Of a stretch of 64,000 bases of DNA, positions 53,225-58,324 are shown in pieces. Under the pieces are notes generated by a model, which had not been told where the DNA came from, made no database searches, and saw nothing but the letters and a program-made list of their open reading frames with translations. The translations under genes and the position numbers were made by a program. Source of the DNA: Candidatus Gastranaerophilales bacterium (GTDB taxonomy: Bacteria > Cyanobacteriota > Vampirovibrionia > Gastranaerophilales > Gastranaerophilaceae); assembly GCA_944325555.1 (NCBI GenBank), contig CALVAN010000004.1, forward strand, positions 1 through 64,000. Reading direction: 5' to 3'. The stretch's first letter is position 1. Each line of letters opens with the position of its first letter.

Positions 53225-54760
53225 TTATTTCTTCCGGCTGTTTTCTACAATTTTTGCAACAACGTCATTGAAGAATTTGTCGGCAGTTATTTCTTTTTCA
53301 ACTTTGCAGTTTGCAAGTTCGTTGTTGCGCAGGTTGTTAACTCTGATTGCAGCTTCTTCAACCGGCATTTTTTTATAATAATTAAACAGTTTCGGGTTGT
53401 TCATTACTATGTCATATAAATAAGAAAGACCTGTTTTGGCTTCACCTTCCGTTTTTATTGCCTCTCTTATGTAAGATTGTTCAAGGAGATTTGCTGCTTG
53501 ATGATATCTTTTAGCACCTCTGCCTTCTGCATCGGCACAAAAATCATCAGAAATTTTTCTCATTTTATCAAGGTCAACATGTCCGTTCCTTGAGTTTTCA
53601 CCGATAATTCTGTTTGCTTCTTCCTGACTGGCTTTTTGAATTTCGTCAATTTTATCTATAGTTTCTTTTTTGGAAAGATTGATTTCCGGTTTGGCTTCTT
53701 TTACGGGAGCGGATTCCTGTTTAGCTTTATTTGTTTCAGGTTTAGCATCTTGTTTAGAAGCTTCAGCAGGTTTGGCTTCCGGTTTCGCTTCCGCATTAGC
53801 AGGAGCTTCTTGTTTAGGAGCCTCAGCGGGTTTAGTTTCTGTTTTAGCCGCAGGGGCATCTGTTTTTGGTGCTTCTTCAGGTTTAGCTTCGGGTTTTGCA
53901 GCAGGAGTTTCCTGTTTCGGTGCATCAGCGGGTTTATTTTCTGGTTTTGCCTCAGGTGCTTTTGCATCCGCAGCTTCTACAGGTTTTTCTTCTGTTTTAG
54001 CAGCAGGAGCTTCCTGTTTCGGTGCATCAGCGGGTTTATTTTCTGGTTTTGCCTCAGGTGCTTTTGCATCCGCAGCTTCTACAGGTTTTTCTTCTGTTTT
54101 AGCAGCAGGAGCTTCCTGTTTCGGTGCATCAGCGGGTTTATTTTCTGGTTTTGCCTCAGGTGCTTTTGCATCTGCAGCTTCTACAGGTTTTTCTTCTGTT
54201 TTAGCAGCAGGAGCTTCTTGTTTAGGAGCCTCAGCGGGTTTAGCTTCAGGTTTAGCAGAAGGGGCATCTGGTTTCGGTGCTTCTGCTGTTGCTGCTTTGG
54301 ACTCTGCTTTAGATACATCAGCAGCTGTTTCTGTTACGTTTTTTGCCTGTGCTGCTTCTGTAGTTCCCTTTTGGGCGGTCTTTGAAGCGTCTGCTACTTC
54401 TTCTTTTGCTTTTGCTGCAGCATCCGCCAGACCTTCTTTTACTTCATTGACGGTCTTTTTATTTAAATTTTTACCTCTGCCTTTTACCAAATAAACGCCC
54501 AGACCTGCAAGTACAATTGCACCCGCAACATATGGTGCGGCTTTTTTGAAGTTTGTTTTTGCTTTGCTTAAATCTTTGTTTTCTGTTTTAGTTTCCTCGG
54601 TTTTAGCGACTTGTGCAGGAGCGGTAGCAGCGGAAACGGTTGTTTTAGCAGCAGGAGCAGTTGCTGCAGCTGCTGTTGAGGCGGCAACTTTTGCCTGAGT
54701 TGCGGCAACCAAATTGCCTGCCGGCGGTAAAGATAATGTACTGATTGATTTGATGTCCAT
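53225..54760 (-). CDS. Membrane-anchored protein with Ala/Pro/Glu/Lys tandem repeats (paralogue 1)
   Basis: 511 residues. It starts MDIKSIST, then a low-complexity part; residues about 75-92 are a membrane segment (PYVAGAIVLAGLGVYLV) followed by KGRGKN. Residues about 170-350 are a spacer built of near-identical 34-residue (102-bp) repeats with the core KPADAPKQEAPAAKTEEKP. The C-terminal domain from about residue 370 is shared with the neighbour at 54839, including RGAKRYHQAANLLEQSYIRE and YYKKMPVEEAAIRVNNLR. It probably sits in the membrane with the repeats as a spacer to the C-terminal domain. Function unknown. Confidence 0.75.
   Translation of the reverse strand: MDIKSISTLSLPPAGNLVAATQAKVAASTAAAATAPAAKTTVSAATAPAQVAKTEETKTENKDLSKAKTNFKKAAPYVAGAIVLAGLGVYLVKGRGKNLNKKTVNEVKEGLADAAAKAKEEVADASKTAQKGTTEAAQAKNVTETAADVSKAESKAATAEAPKPDAPSAKPEAKPAEAPKQEAPAAKTEEKPVEAADAKAPEAKPENKPADAPKQEAPAAKTEEKPVEAADAKAPEAKPENKPADAPKQEAPAAKTEEKPVEAADAKAPEAKPENKPADAPKQETPAAKPEAKPEEAPKTDAPAAKTETKPAEAPKQEAPANAEAKPEAKPAEASKQDAKPETNKAKQESAPVKEAKPEINLSKKETIDKIDEIQKASQEEANRIIGENSRNGHVDLDKMRKISDDFCADAEGRGAKRYHQAANLLEQSYIREAIKTEGEAKTGLSYLYDIVMNNPKLFNYYKKMPVEEAAIRVNNLRNNELANCKVEKEITADKFFNDVVAKIVENSRKK
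53920..54230. repeat. 102-bp tandem repeat in the coding region
   Basis: About three near-identical units of 102 bp (34 codons), with a fainter repeat pattern outside. The pieces differ at only a few bases, which suggests recent amplification, probably by slippage or recombination. Confidence 0.85.
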
Positions 54761-54838: not shown

Positions 54839-56242
54839 TTAATTAATTGTTGTACCGAGCTTTTTAGCTGTCTCTTTTAGAAGGTTCAATGTATGTTCAT
54901 TATCAGAATCAATTATCTGAGGCGGAAGCTCAAACCTTCTAAATGCATTAACTCTTTGCAGAGCCTGTTCTTTAGGCATTTTTTTATAAATGTCGAAAAG
55001 AACTTTATTGTTTAAAAAGTCTTTTTCTAATTCAGAAAATAATTTTTCACCCGAAGGTTTGCTCATAAAATCATTTAAAATAGCCTTTTCCATAATATAT
55101 GCGGCTTTATGGGCATCCGGTTCATTTTGTGCAATTTGTGTTAACCTTTCAAGAGGTGTACCCTGAGCTTTAGATAGGGATTCTGTGTTAATAATCGATT
55201 CCGTATTTTTTCTTAGTCCCTGATTAATTTGCATTATATCGTTAAAGTTTCCGTCAATTTTAAAGGTATCATTATATTTTTTAAATTGGCGTTTTTCTAT
55301 CAGTCTGTCGAACATTTTGTCAAAAAATGTTTCTTTAGACATGTCTTTAGCGGCATTGCATTTTAAAAGATCATTGTAACAGATGTAGTTAATTCTGTTT
55401 ACGGCTTCTTCAAGAGGCATTTTTGTGTATATAGACATAAGCTCCGTGTCAGATTTCATTGTATCAAACAGGTTGTACACTCCGTGTTTTTCAAAACCGT
55501 CAGGTTTTATGTATTCTCTGATATAAGATTGTTCAAGAATCTCAGCTGCCTGATGGAATCTGTCCGCACCTCTGCCGGCCTCGTCCGTTGAAAAATCATG
55601 GGCAACTTTTCTCATTATATTAAAATTTATATGTCCGTCTTTGGTGTTTTCCGCAATGATTCTGTTAATTTCATCAAACTTTTCATTTTTGTTTTTAATT
55701 ATTTTTGCAATAATTTCGTCATTTAAAGGGTTTATTTTATTTTTAATCTCTTTATATCCGTCTATGGCTGGAGTAATAGCAGCGCTTACAACCTCTGATT
55801 TTTTTACGTAAATCGGCTTGCCGTTTGAAAAACCGGTACAGATATATTCTTCTTTCGGCGCAAGTATAGCCGGCAGATGAGAAACTTTTTTATTTTCAAT
55901 AAATTCTTCTTTTATTTCTTCGCCGATTTCTTTTAACTCTTCTTTAAGTTCTTCTTTAGCTTTTTCTTTTAAATTTTTGTCAACAACATTTTTGCCCCTG
56001 CCCTTTAACAAATAAAAACCTAAACCTGCCAGCACTACAACACCGGCTGCATATGGCAGAGCTTTTTTAAAATTTGCAGCGGTTTTATTGGTTTTTTGTT
56101 GAGGCTGCTGTTTAGAAGTTTCAGCTGTCTTAGTGTTTACAGGTTTTTGTGTTTTGGGAGTATCAGCAGTCGTTTTAGATGCGGGTGTCTTTACATAGGT
56201 CGTATTCGGTAAAGGAAGTGTGCTGATAGCCTTAATATCCAT
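54839..56242 (-). CDS. Membrane-anchored protein with the same C-terminal domain (paralogue 2)
   Basis: 467 residues from ATG 56242, chosen because AAAGGGA lies 6 nt upstream; the frame extends to 56308 without a site. It starts MDIKAIST, and residues about 62-79 (PYAAGVVVLAGLGFYLL) followed by KGRGKN match paralogue 1. The C-terminal domain appears twice: RGADRFHQAAEILEQSYIRE with YTKMPLEEAVNRIN, then HKAAYIMEKAILNDF with YKKMPKEQALQRVNAFR. It lacks the Ala/Pro repeat. The two genes are tandem, 78 bp apart, and arose by duplication. Confidence 0.75.
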   Translation of the reverse strand: MDIKAISTLPLPNTTYVKTPASKTTADTPKTQKPVNTKTAETSKQQPQQKTNKTAANFKKALPYAAGVVVLAGLGFYLLKGRGKNVVDKNLKEKAKEELKEELKEIGEEIKEEFIENKKVSHLPAILAPKEEYICTGFSNGKPIYVKKSEVVSAAITPAIDGYKEIKNKINPLNDEIIAKIIKNKNEKFDEINRIIAENTKDGHINFNIMRKVAHDFSTDEAGRGADRFHQAAEILEQSYIREYIKPDGFEKHGVYNLFDTMKSDTELMSIYTKMPLEEAVNRINYICYNDLLKCNAAKDMSKETFFDKMFDRLIEKRQFKKYNDTFKIDGNFNDIMQINQGLRKNTESIINTESLSKAQGTPLERLTQIAQNEPDAHKAAYIMEKAILNDFMSKPSGEKLFSELEKDFLNNKVLFDIYKKMPKEQALQRVNAFRRFELPPQIIDSDNEHTLNLLKETAKKLGTTIN

Positions 56243-56434
56243 AAGATTCCCTTTTGAAATATTTGCAGTCATTATTATTAATAATACAACTATTGAAAGT
56301 ACAAACAAAATAAATTTTGCTATTAATAATATTTACATTTTACAATTCATAACAATTACTAAAAACGTAAACATATTGCATATACCAAATATTCTGGGTA
56401 TTATATATACTGTTAAAAATAATAAGGATATAAG

Positions 56435-58324
56435 ATGTCATCAGACAGTAATAATATTGAAACAACTAATAACACAGAAAACTTACAGGATAATAAAGAA
56501 ACTATTTCGTTAAAAATTGAAAACAACATATCACACGAAGATGCTGAAAACTCAAAATTTATGGCTGTAATCAAAGCTTTGATAGCAAATTTGGGTATTG
56601 CACTTGTTAAGTTTATTTGTTTTTTGTTTTCATCAAGTTCCGCAATGCTTGCAGAGGCAATTCACTCCGGGGTGGATTCGTTTAACAGCATATGTCTGCT
56701 GGTCGGAATAAAAAGAGGAGCAAGACCTGCCGACAATGTTCACCCGTTTGGCTACGGGTTGGAAGCTAATGTCTGGGCAATGTTTGCTTCTATATTAATG
56801 CTCGGCGGTACTTTTGTTGCACTGTATCACGGGTTTGAAAAACTTGTTCATGCCGAAGAAGCTGCAGAACTCTTAAGAAATTATCCGTATATCGCCGTTG
56901 CACTTATTTGCAGTATATGTTTTGAAGCTTGGGCAGTAGTCAGTGCCTCTAAGGCTGTTTTGCATGAAGTCGGCATTGAAGAAAAAAATATAATAAAAGA
57001 ATTTTTTATTTCAATAAAATACATAGGTAAAATCAAAAGTCCTACAACAAAATTTGTATGGTATGAAGATACGGCAGCATTTACCGGTGTTATAGTTGCT
57101 TTTATCGCTTTAACACTTGCAAAATTTGTAATGCCGCCGGCACTTGCATACATACCTGATGCTATTGCGTCTATTATTATTGGTACTATTTTGTTTTTCC
57201 TTGCGATTTATCTTTTAAAAAACAATGTAAGCAGTTTGACTGTACAGGCGGCAGAGCCCAAAGTAGAAGAAAAAATCAGACAGGTTGCTTCAACAATACA
57301 TGGAGTAACAGATGTAATTGAATTAAAAACAATAGATTTAGGCTCTTCAGGAGTAATTATCAACATGACAATAGAAGTTGATCCTGAAACTCAGATGAAA
57401 GACGCCGATGATATTGCAGACATGCTTGAGCGTAAAATAAGAAAAGTTATTAAAAATATTGCTCACATAACAATAGAACTGCAAGCCCACGATGCTGAAG
57501 ATAATTGGGAAGAAAAATTCCACAAACTTATCAAAGAGGGTGAAAAACTCGAAACAATTGACAGTCATGAAGCACAAATGCTTTCAAATTTCTTTGGTTT
57601 TGCAAACACTGTTGTTAAAGAAATTATGATTCCGAGAACTGAAATTTCAATGATTAGTGTTGAACAAAACATTAATGAACTTGCTGATTTGATTATAAAT
57701 TCCGGTCATACACGTATCCCTGTTTACAGAGATAATGTAGATAATATAATCGGCGTAATTAATGCAAAAGATGTTTTGAAAGTTATTAAAAATAACCATG
57801 TTGACGAAAATTTCTCAATAGAGATGTTAACCAGAGAATTGTTAATAGTTCCGGAAAATAAATTTATATCAGATATGCTCAGTGATTTTATTGCTTCAAA
57901 AAATCAAATCGCAGCTGTTGTTGATGAGCACGGCGGAGTTGCAGGTATTGTTACGATTGAAGATATTCTTGAAGAAATTGTCGGAGAAATTTACGACGAA
58001 TTTGACAAAGTTGAAACTCCTGAAGTTGTAAAAATTGACGATAATACATTAAACGTTTCTTGCAAAATGGACATTGATGATATAAACGATCGTTTTGATC
58101 TGGATATTCCAAATGAAGATTTTCAGACAATCGGCGGATATGTCTTTGGACTTTTAGGAAGAGAACCTGAATTAAACGATGTTATAGAAGATAAAAATAT
58201 TACTTATACAATTTTAGAAATTGACGGCAGAAGAATTTCCCGCATAAAAATGCATAAAGAAACTCCTTTTGTCGATGCGCAGGACGTAAAATCCGACGAA
58301 GAACAGAGCTCTGACGGACAATAA
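56435..58324 (+). CDS. Fusion: CDF cation-efflux transporter with CBS pair and CorC_HlyC domain
   Basis: 629 residues. Residues about 40-275 are a cation diffusion facilitator membrane domain with AEAIHSGVDSFNS (HxxxD metal site), the HPFGYGLEANVW stretch, and YEDTAAFTGV, as in the ZnT9-like branch; a ZT-dimer-like part follows (about 275-350). Residues about 375-535 are a CBS pair preceded by VVKEIMIPRTEISMI, with VVDEHGGVAGIVTIEDILEEIVGEI, and residues about 545-610 are a CorC_HlyC domain (FQTIGGYVFGLLGREP). CorC domains normally follow a DUF21/CNNM membrane part, so this combination is unusual. It should export a divalent metal under control of a nucleotide sensed by the CBS pair. Confidence 0.85.
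   Translation: MSSDSNNIETTNNTENLQDNKETISLKIENNISHEDAENSKFMAVIKALIANLGIALVKFICFLFSSSSAMLAEAIHSGVDSFNSICLLVGIKRGARPADNVHPFGYGLEANVWAMFASILMLGGTFVALYHGFEKLVHAEEAAELLRNYPYIAVALICSICFEAWAVVSASKAVLHEVGIEEKNIIKEFFISIKYIGKIKSPTTKFVWYEDTAAFTGVIVAFIALTLAKFVMPPALAYIPDAIASIIIGTILFFLAIYLLKNNVSSLTVQAAEPKVEEKIRQVASTIHGVTDVIELKTIDLGSSGVIINMTIEVDPETQMKDADDIADMLERKIRKVIKNIAHITIELQAHDAEDNWEEKFHKLIKEGEKLETIDSHEAQMLSNFFGFANTVVKEIMIPRTEISMISVEQNINELADLIINSGHTRIPVYRDNVDNIIGVINAKDVLKVIKNNHVDENFSIEMLTRELLIVPENKFISDMLSDFIASKNQIAAVVDEHGGVAGIVTIEDILEEIVGEIYDEFDKVETPEVVKIDDNTLNVSCKMDIDDINDRFDLDIPNEDFQTIGGYVFGLLGREPELNDVIEDKNITYTILEIDGRRISRIKMHKETPFVDAQDVKSDEEQSSDGQ

Follow-up and report, generated by a model that had tools for sequence, protein, structure and literature searches.

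A CDF-type protein joined to a CorB/CorC-type cytosolic module in the cyanobacterial class Vampirovibrionia

We analyzed the first 64,000 nucleotides of contig CALVAN010000004.1 (assembly GCA_944325555.1, Candidatus Gastranaerophilales bacterium, a gut relative of Cyanobacteria), referred to here as the window. The gene studied is one ATG-started open frame encoding a protein of 629 aa, and all Pfam domain calls on this protein exceeded the curated cut-offs. A CDF domain fused to CBS and CorC_HlyC domains, as claimed at 56435-58324 by the original prediction, was confirmed by this single frame and these matches. The ZT_dimer domain, which had been omitted there, was found beside them. The features of the gene are as follows.

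56435..58324, + strand: whole gene, one ATG-started open frame, CDF-ZT_dimer-CBS-CBS-CorC_HlyC fusion protein of 629 aa
56576..57238, + strand: Cation_efflux domain, aa 48-268 (Pfam E 1.5e-31)
56663..56677, + strand: TM2 site H77-x3-D81, equivalent to YiiP D45/D49, invariant in 91 sequences
57056..57070, + strand: TM5 V208-x3-D212, ZnT9-type VxxxD instead of HxxxD (alignment of 91 sequences)
57257..57478, + strand: ZT_dimer cytosolic dimerisation domain, aa 275-348 (Pfam E 6.8e-11, 42.5 bits)
57506..57622, + strand: joint, start of the added module, helices 358-371 and 377-396, which correspond to the acidic helical bundle of MtCorB
57614..57994, + strand: CBS pair, aa 394-520 (Pfam E 1e-14, two CBS stretches)
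57713..57715, + strand: R427, equivalent to MtCorB R235 (phosphate contact), R in 87/91 and K in 4/91
57953..57964, + strand: T507 and D510, equivalent to MtCorB T313/D316 (ribose contacts), invariant in 91
58031..58258, + strand: CorC_HlyC domain, aa 533-608 (Pfam E 4.6e-20)

The N-terminal half scored 110.2 bits against Pfam Cation_efflux (cut-off 26.6) and 140.3 against NCBIfam TIGR01297 (cut-off 82.35), placing it in the CDF superfamily (TC 2.A.4). TIGR01297 was the sole NCBIfam model over its cut-off, and no NCBIfam model for the whole fusion protein was found. Pfam detected no DUF21/CNNM membrane domain (PF01595) of the CNNM/CorB type in the protein. The CDF, CBS, and CorC parts each matched solved structures by sequence, separately from one another.

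The structure of the fusion was predicted as a single chain with AlphaFold, using 49 diverse relatives (mean pLDDT 80, pTM 0.50). The model showed six predicted TM helices in a CDF fold, followed by the cytosolic ZT_dimer domain. CDF transporters, YiiP and human ZnTs among them, were matched over about residues 31-358 with a Z of about 22; against YiiP (5vrf), the VIA Z was 22.2 with an rmsd of 5.7 over 282. Residues 396-517 matched the CBS pair of archaeal MtCorB with Mg-ATP (7msu) with a VIA Z of 17.8 and an rmsd of 1.8 over 118 residues. The packing of the CDF and tail halves is left unfixed by this single-chain model (pTM 0.50).

The whole-collection scan and genome searches identified the same single-frame fusion in 131 loci from many assemblies, representing 91 distinct sequences with identities to the window protein reaching down to 36%. 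The whole-collection scan alone gave 58 loci, nearly all on contigs titled Candidatus Gastranaerophilales or unnamed bacteria. We compared the window gene with 22 relatives at 81-96% identity. The dN/dS ratios, which are rough as dS was near saturation, were about 0.06 for the membrane part, 0.02 for ZT_dimer, 0.04 for CBS, and 0.02 for CorC, and the lowest of the protein, about 0.014, was that of the joint (aa 353-396). Purifying selection acted on every domain and on the joint, and loose selection was confined to the two tails of the protein. W358 of the joint was present in 90/91 fusion sequences, and base composition around 57500 showed no break.

The first reading had named a frameshift or assembly join at about 57500 as what would overturn it. 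Two adjacent genes joined through a frameshift, a read error, or an assembly join are conceivable, as a standalone ZnT9-like CDF gene adjoins a CNNM-CBS-CorC-type gene on an Azospirillum plasmid. However, the single open frames at 131 loci, the 91 distinct sequences, the near-invariant W358, and the strong constraint on the joint make such an origin practically negligible, and together with the even base composition they led us to reject it. The fusion is genuine and ancient, and it is conserved across the class to which it belongs.

The distribution of the fusion was examined at several taxonomic levels. It was present in 22/22 other genomes sampled from the same genus and in 68/289 sampled from the same class. 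Families f9, f14, and f15, outside the order Gastranaerophilales, carry it at about 38-44% identity to the window protein, and the Pfam domain order was identical in six distant members, five of them from these families. In the class sample, many genera of the window's own family were without the fusion, indicating losses. Every match in the phylum sample (386 genomes) lay within the class. No fusion was found in the phylum of a Syntrophus-titled record (247 genomes), where, among the matches listed, only the tail was covered, or in that of a Clostridia-titled record (299 genomes). Thus, within the phyla sampled, its own and two others, the fusion looks like a class-level trait of this non-photosynthetic cyanobacterial lineage. 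A widespread architecture, which would have undone the original prediction, was not observed in its own phylum outside the class or in the two other phyla.

Some candidates were rejected. In 72,556 plasmid records, the sole match covering more than 80% of the query was the Azospirillum match (85%), and it consists of two separate genes. On this plasmid, from Azospirillum ramasamyi (L154, 3905-6586), a gap of 400 bases separates the standalone CDF gene from the hemolysin-family (CBS-CorC-type) gene on the same strand; these are the two parts found fused in the window protein. The extra N-terminal part of two further CDF-matching frames, 511 and 460 aa long (L209, L216), resembles translated non-coding sequence ahead of the CDF start and does not represent another fusion.

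Trees were built for each half of the protein. In both, the fusions formed one group (CBS half 100/96; CDF half 86/91) that divided in the same way, with Gastranaerophilales on one side and the f9/f14/f15 families on the other. Such agreement would be expected if the two halves had been passed on together since a single ancient fusion. This fits a single fusion event in the class ancestor, probably followed by vertical inheritance and losses. In the tail tree, a CNNM-type protein from the same class (L159; 95/94) was placed next to the fusions. Constraining them with soluble CorC was not rejected (p-AU 0.18), so the tail donor may have been of the CNNM type or a soluble CorC. The standalone relatives with the same TM5 motif in the tree of the CDF half were all bacterial. 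A closer standalone CDF homologue (L158), 36-40% identical, ends a few residues past the DW equivalent to the start of the joint; it may be the closest standalone CDF (p-AU 0.30). KsgA-like genes adjoin both a fusion gene (L117) and the CNNM-CBS-CorC gene of L159, in the same class; the transmembrane part could have been swapped in place, or the shared neighbour could be due to chance.

We then compared the CDF half with known transport sites. The sequence marks named in the original prediction, AEAIHSGVDS (TM2), HPFGYG, and YEDTAAFTG (TM5), were all present, but YEDTAAFTG characterizes the ZnT9-like subgroup and not CDF proteins in general. With the TM5 register placed by motif and not by residue-level structural alignment, V208 and E211 were invariant and D212 was present in 90/91 sequences; in one order-level relative (L133), Glu replaces Asp at the D212 position. 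The TM5 HxxxD or DxxxD of the Zn-, Fe/Zn-, and Mn-CDF groups was absent, V208 being found in all 91. The ZnT9-like cluster has His in TM2 and VxxxD in TM5, without the usual TM5 pattern, and mixes bacterial and eukaryotic members (Montanini et al., PMC1868760). The fusions have both features; judged by these motifs, the CDF half belongs to the ZnT9-like type and not to the YiiP-like type.

YiiP/FieF shares with the fusion the overall CDF fold and the position of the TM2 metal pair. In contrast, the fusion has Val at TM5 His153, and YiiP/FieF is without the CBS-CorC tail. At site B, where, as for the cytosolic site, the register against YiiP was set partly by hand, D100 and H103 were kept and the second His (His75) was replaced by Tyr. 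Most of the site C histidines, which bind cytosolic zinc in YiiP, were replaced in the ZT_dimer domain; acidic D325, D326, and E348 were invariant. Since valine occupies one of the four positions that usually supply transport-site ligands, metal transport is not transferable from YiiP, and we infer metal export by the fusion from its CDF family.

ZnT9/SLC30A9-like proteins (TC 2.A.4) have the same HxxxD in TM2, V/IxxxD in TM5, and ZT_dimer-type cytosolic domain, whereas standalone members end shortly past ZT_dimer and the fusion adds a helical bundle, a CBS pair, and a CorC domain. The same TM5 motif occurs in standalone relatives from 10 genomes of photosynthetic Cyanobacteria (E about 1e-59 to 1e-66), as well as in others from the samples centred on Syntrophus and on Clostridia. 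An HD-DN site has been proposed for ZnT9, whose substrate is possibly different (PMC5837213).

The loss of the TM5 ligand (V208) also bears on whether the CDF half transports at all. It might be a transport-dead anchor or dimer platform, in which case the protein would act as a CorC tethered to the membrane and control a different cation transporter, for example the CNNM-CBS-CorC protein of the genome. Regulation of a separate transporter has been attributed to soluble CorC (PMC12421838). As this genome has just two CorC_HlyC matches, the fusion and the CNNM-type protein, the fusion could fill that role. However, H77, D81, E211, D212, D100/H103, and D242 are conserved over deep divergence, which is unexpected for a mere anchor, and animal ZnT9, a reported mitochondrial zinc transporter, has the same V/IxxxD (PMC11335279). 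We consider a transport-dead platform improbable.

The tail was compared with MtCorB. Residue 359 of the fusion aligned with chain residue 167 of MtCorB, whose acidic helical bundle spans residues 166-199 (PMC8242095), indicating that the added part is a complete cytosolic module of bundle, CBS pair, and CorC domain. CorB/CNNM magnesium transporters (PF01595-CBS-CorC_HlyC, e.g. MtCorB), on which this tail is normally found, have the same module from the helical bundle onward and the same Mg-ATP contact residues; they differ in having the DUF21/CNNM transmembrane part in place of CDF and ZT_dimer. Judged by the residues kept, the tail appears to be of the CNNM/CorB type, a CBS pair with Mg-ATP contacts followed by CorC_HlyC. 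The linker helices (aa 357-388) contain on average 6.8 acidic residues, compared with 13 of 31 in the MtCorB bundle, and direct Mg sensing there is therefore doubtful.

Mg-ATP makes the CBS pairs of MtCorB dimerise, and when the nucleotide is lost the dimer is rearranged (PMC8242095). The CBS pair of the fusion keeps the residues that hold Mg-ATP in MtCorB, and nucleotide gating is thus the best guess for its function. The adenine-stacking F233 of MtCorB is mostly His in the fusions (H425), and T207 is Val or Ile. These changes alter the adenine/ribose pocket, and the tail may instead sense a metal or another ligand (the transported cation, AMP, or a cyclic dinucleotide) at CorC_HlyC or the CBS cleft, as a product-type control of an exporter. 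Cation sensing has been proposed for the CorC domain (PMC12421838), and CorC-type CBS pairs have been solved with AMP, according to the titles of the matched structures. His also occupies the F233-equivalent position in the solved CorC chain 4hg0. On the other hand, nearly all fusion sequences retain the residues that contact phosphate and ribose in the Mg-ATP pocket. We regard sensing of such another ligand as rather unlikely, if less so than a transport-dead CDF half.

A real, old join conserved across the class suggests a metal pump with its own ATP or magnesium sensor. In the mechanism we favor, a homodimeric CDF transporter of the inner membrane would export a divalent metal in exchange for protons. 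The metal may be zinc, manganese, cobalt, or magnesium, with zinc favored. The complete CorB/CorC cytosolic module would be mounted below the ZT_dimer domain, and Mg-ATP or another adenylate would bind between two CBS pairs and draw them together. This joining would move the CDF cytosolic domains and the transmembrane helices, and transport would be turned on or off with Mg-ATP or the energy state. We judge the chances about even that the protein is a dimeric, ZnT9-like exporter of divalent metal in the inner membrane, switched by Mg-ATP or an adenylate at its CorB/CorC-type tail. More tentatively, at somewhat less than even chances, we propose that a CorB-type tail gates this CDF transporter directly in response to Mg-ATP or adenylate charge, which would make it the first such case described, and that the fusion became fixed early in Vampirovibrionia.

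A CorC-type tail may, according to published work, be attached to a CNNM, TerC, or Na/H exchanger core or stand alone (PMC12421838). MgpA/YoaE and YegH (TerC-CBS-CorC_HlyC) and CvrA (Na/H exchanger and CorC) resemble the fusion in carrying such a tail on an unrelated cation transporter core; they differ in the core itself, CDF being absent from those listed (PMC12421838). The original prediction knew of no described example, in agreement with our literature search, whose coverage left out most subscription journals and which found no description of a CDF core with a CorC-type tail. The architecture is new, and both modules are known. The fusion adds CDF to the transporter cores that borrow CorC tails.

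Regulation of CDF proteins has been described only as metal binding to their own cytosolic domain, and CBS modules as plug-and-play regulators of diverse transporters (review, PMC10710835). A nucleotide-binding module on a CDF protein would add a second input, the energy or Mg-ATP state. The fusion provides an experimental handle on the ZnT9 subgroup, with its altered transport site. If the proposed mechanism is true, the Mg-ATP-gated fusion would be a natural switchable form of a poorly understood ZnT9-type transporter.

The genomic surroundings were also inspected. As possible clues to the substrate, riboswitches and gene neighbours were considered. Rfam gathering scores identified no metal riboswitch upstream of or near the fusion at 14 loci. 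Its gene neighbours were none of them obviously metal-related and differed between lineages; the FlhB-, FlhA-, GpsA-, and Era-like names used here were assigned by reading the sequences. Outside Gastranaerophilales, most loci (L105-L111, L115, L120, L121) have FlhB- and FlhA-like flagellar genes just upstream of the fusion, usually separated from it by a gene for a small membrane protein. Within Gastranaerophilales, the gene that comes after the fusion is instead often GpsA-like (14 loci) or Era-like (7 loci). In the window, two neighbouring paralogue-like proteins of 511 and 489 aa are encoded on the - strand at 53225-54760 and 54839-56308. Their starts are near-identical (MDIKSISTLSLP and MDIKAISTLPLP, the second internal to its longest frame), and the 511-aa protein (53225-54760, - strand) contains a tandem repeat rich in Pro, Ala, Lys, and Glu.
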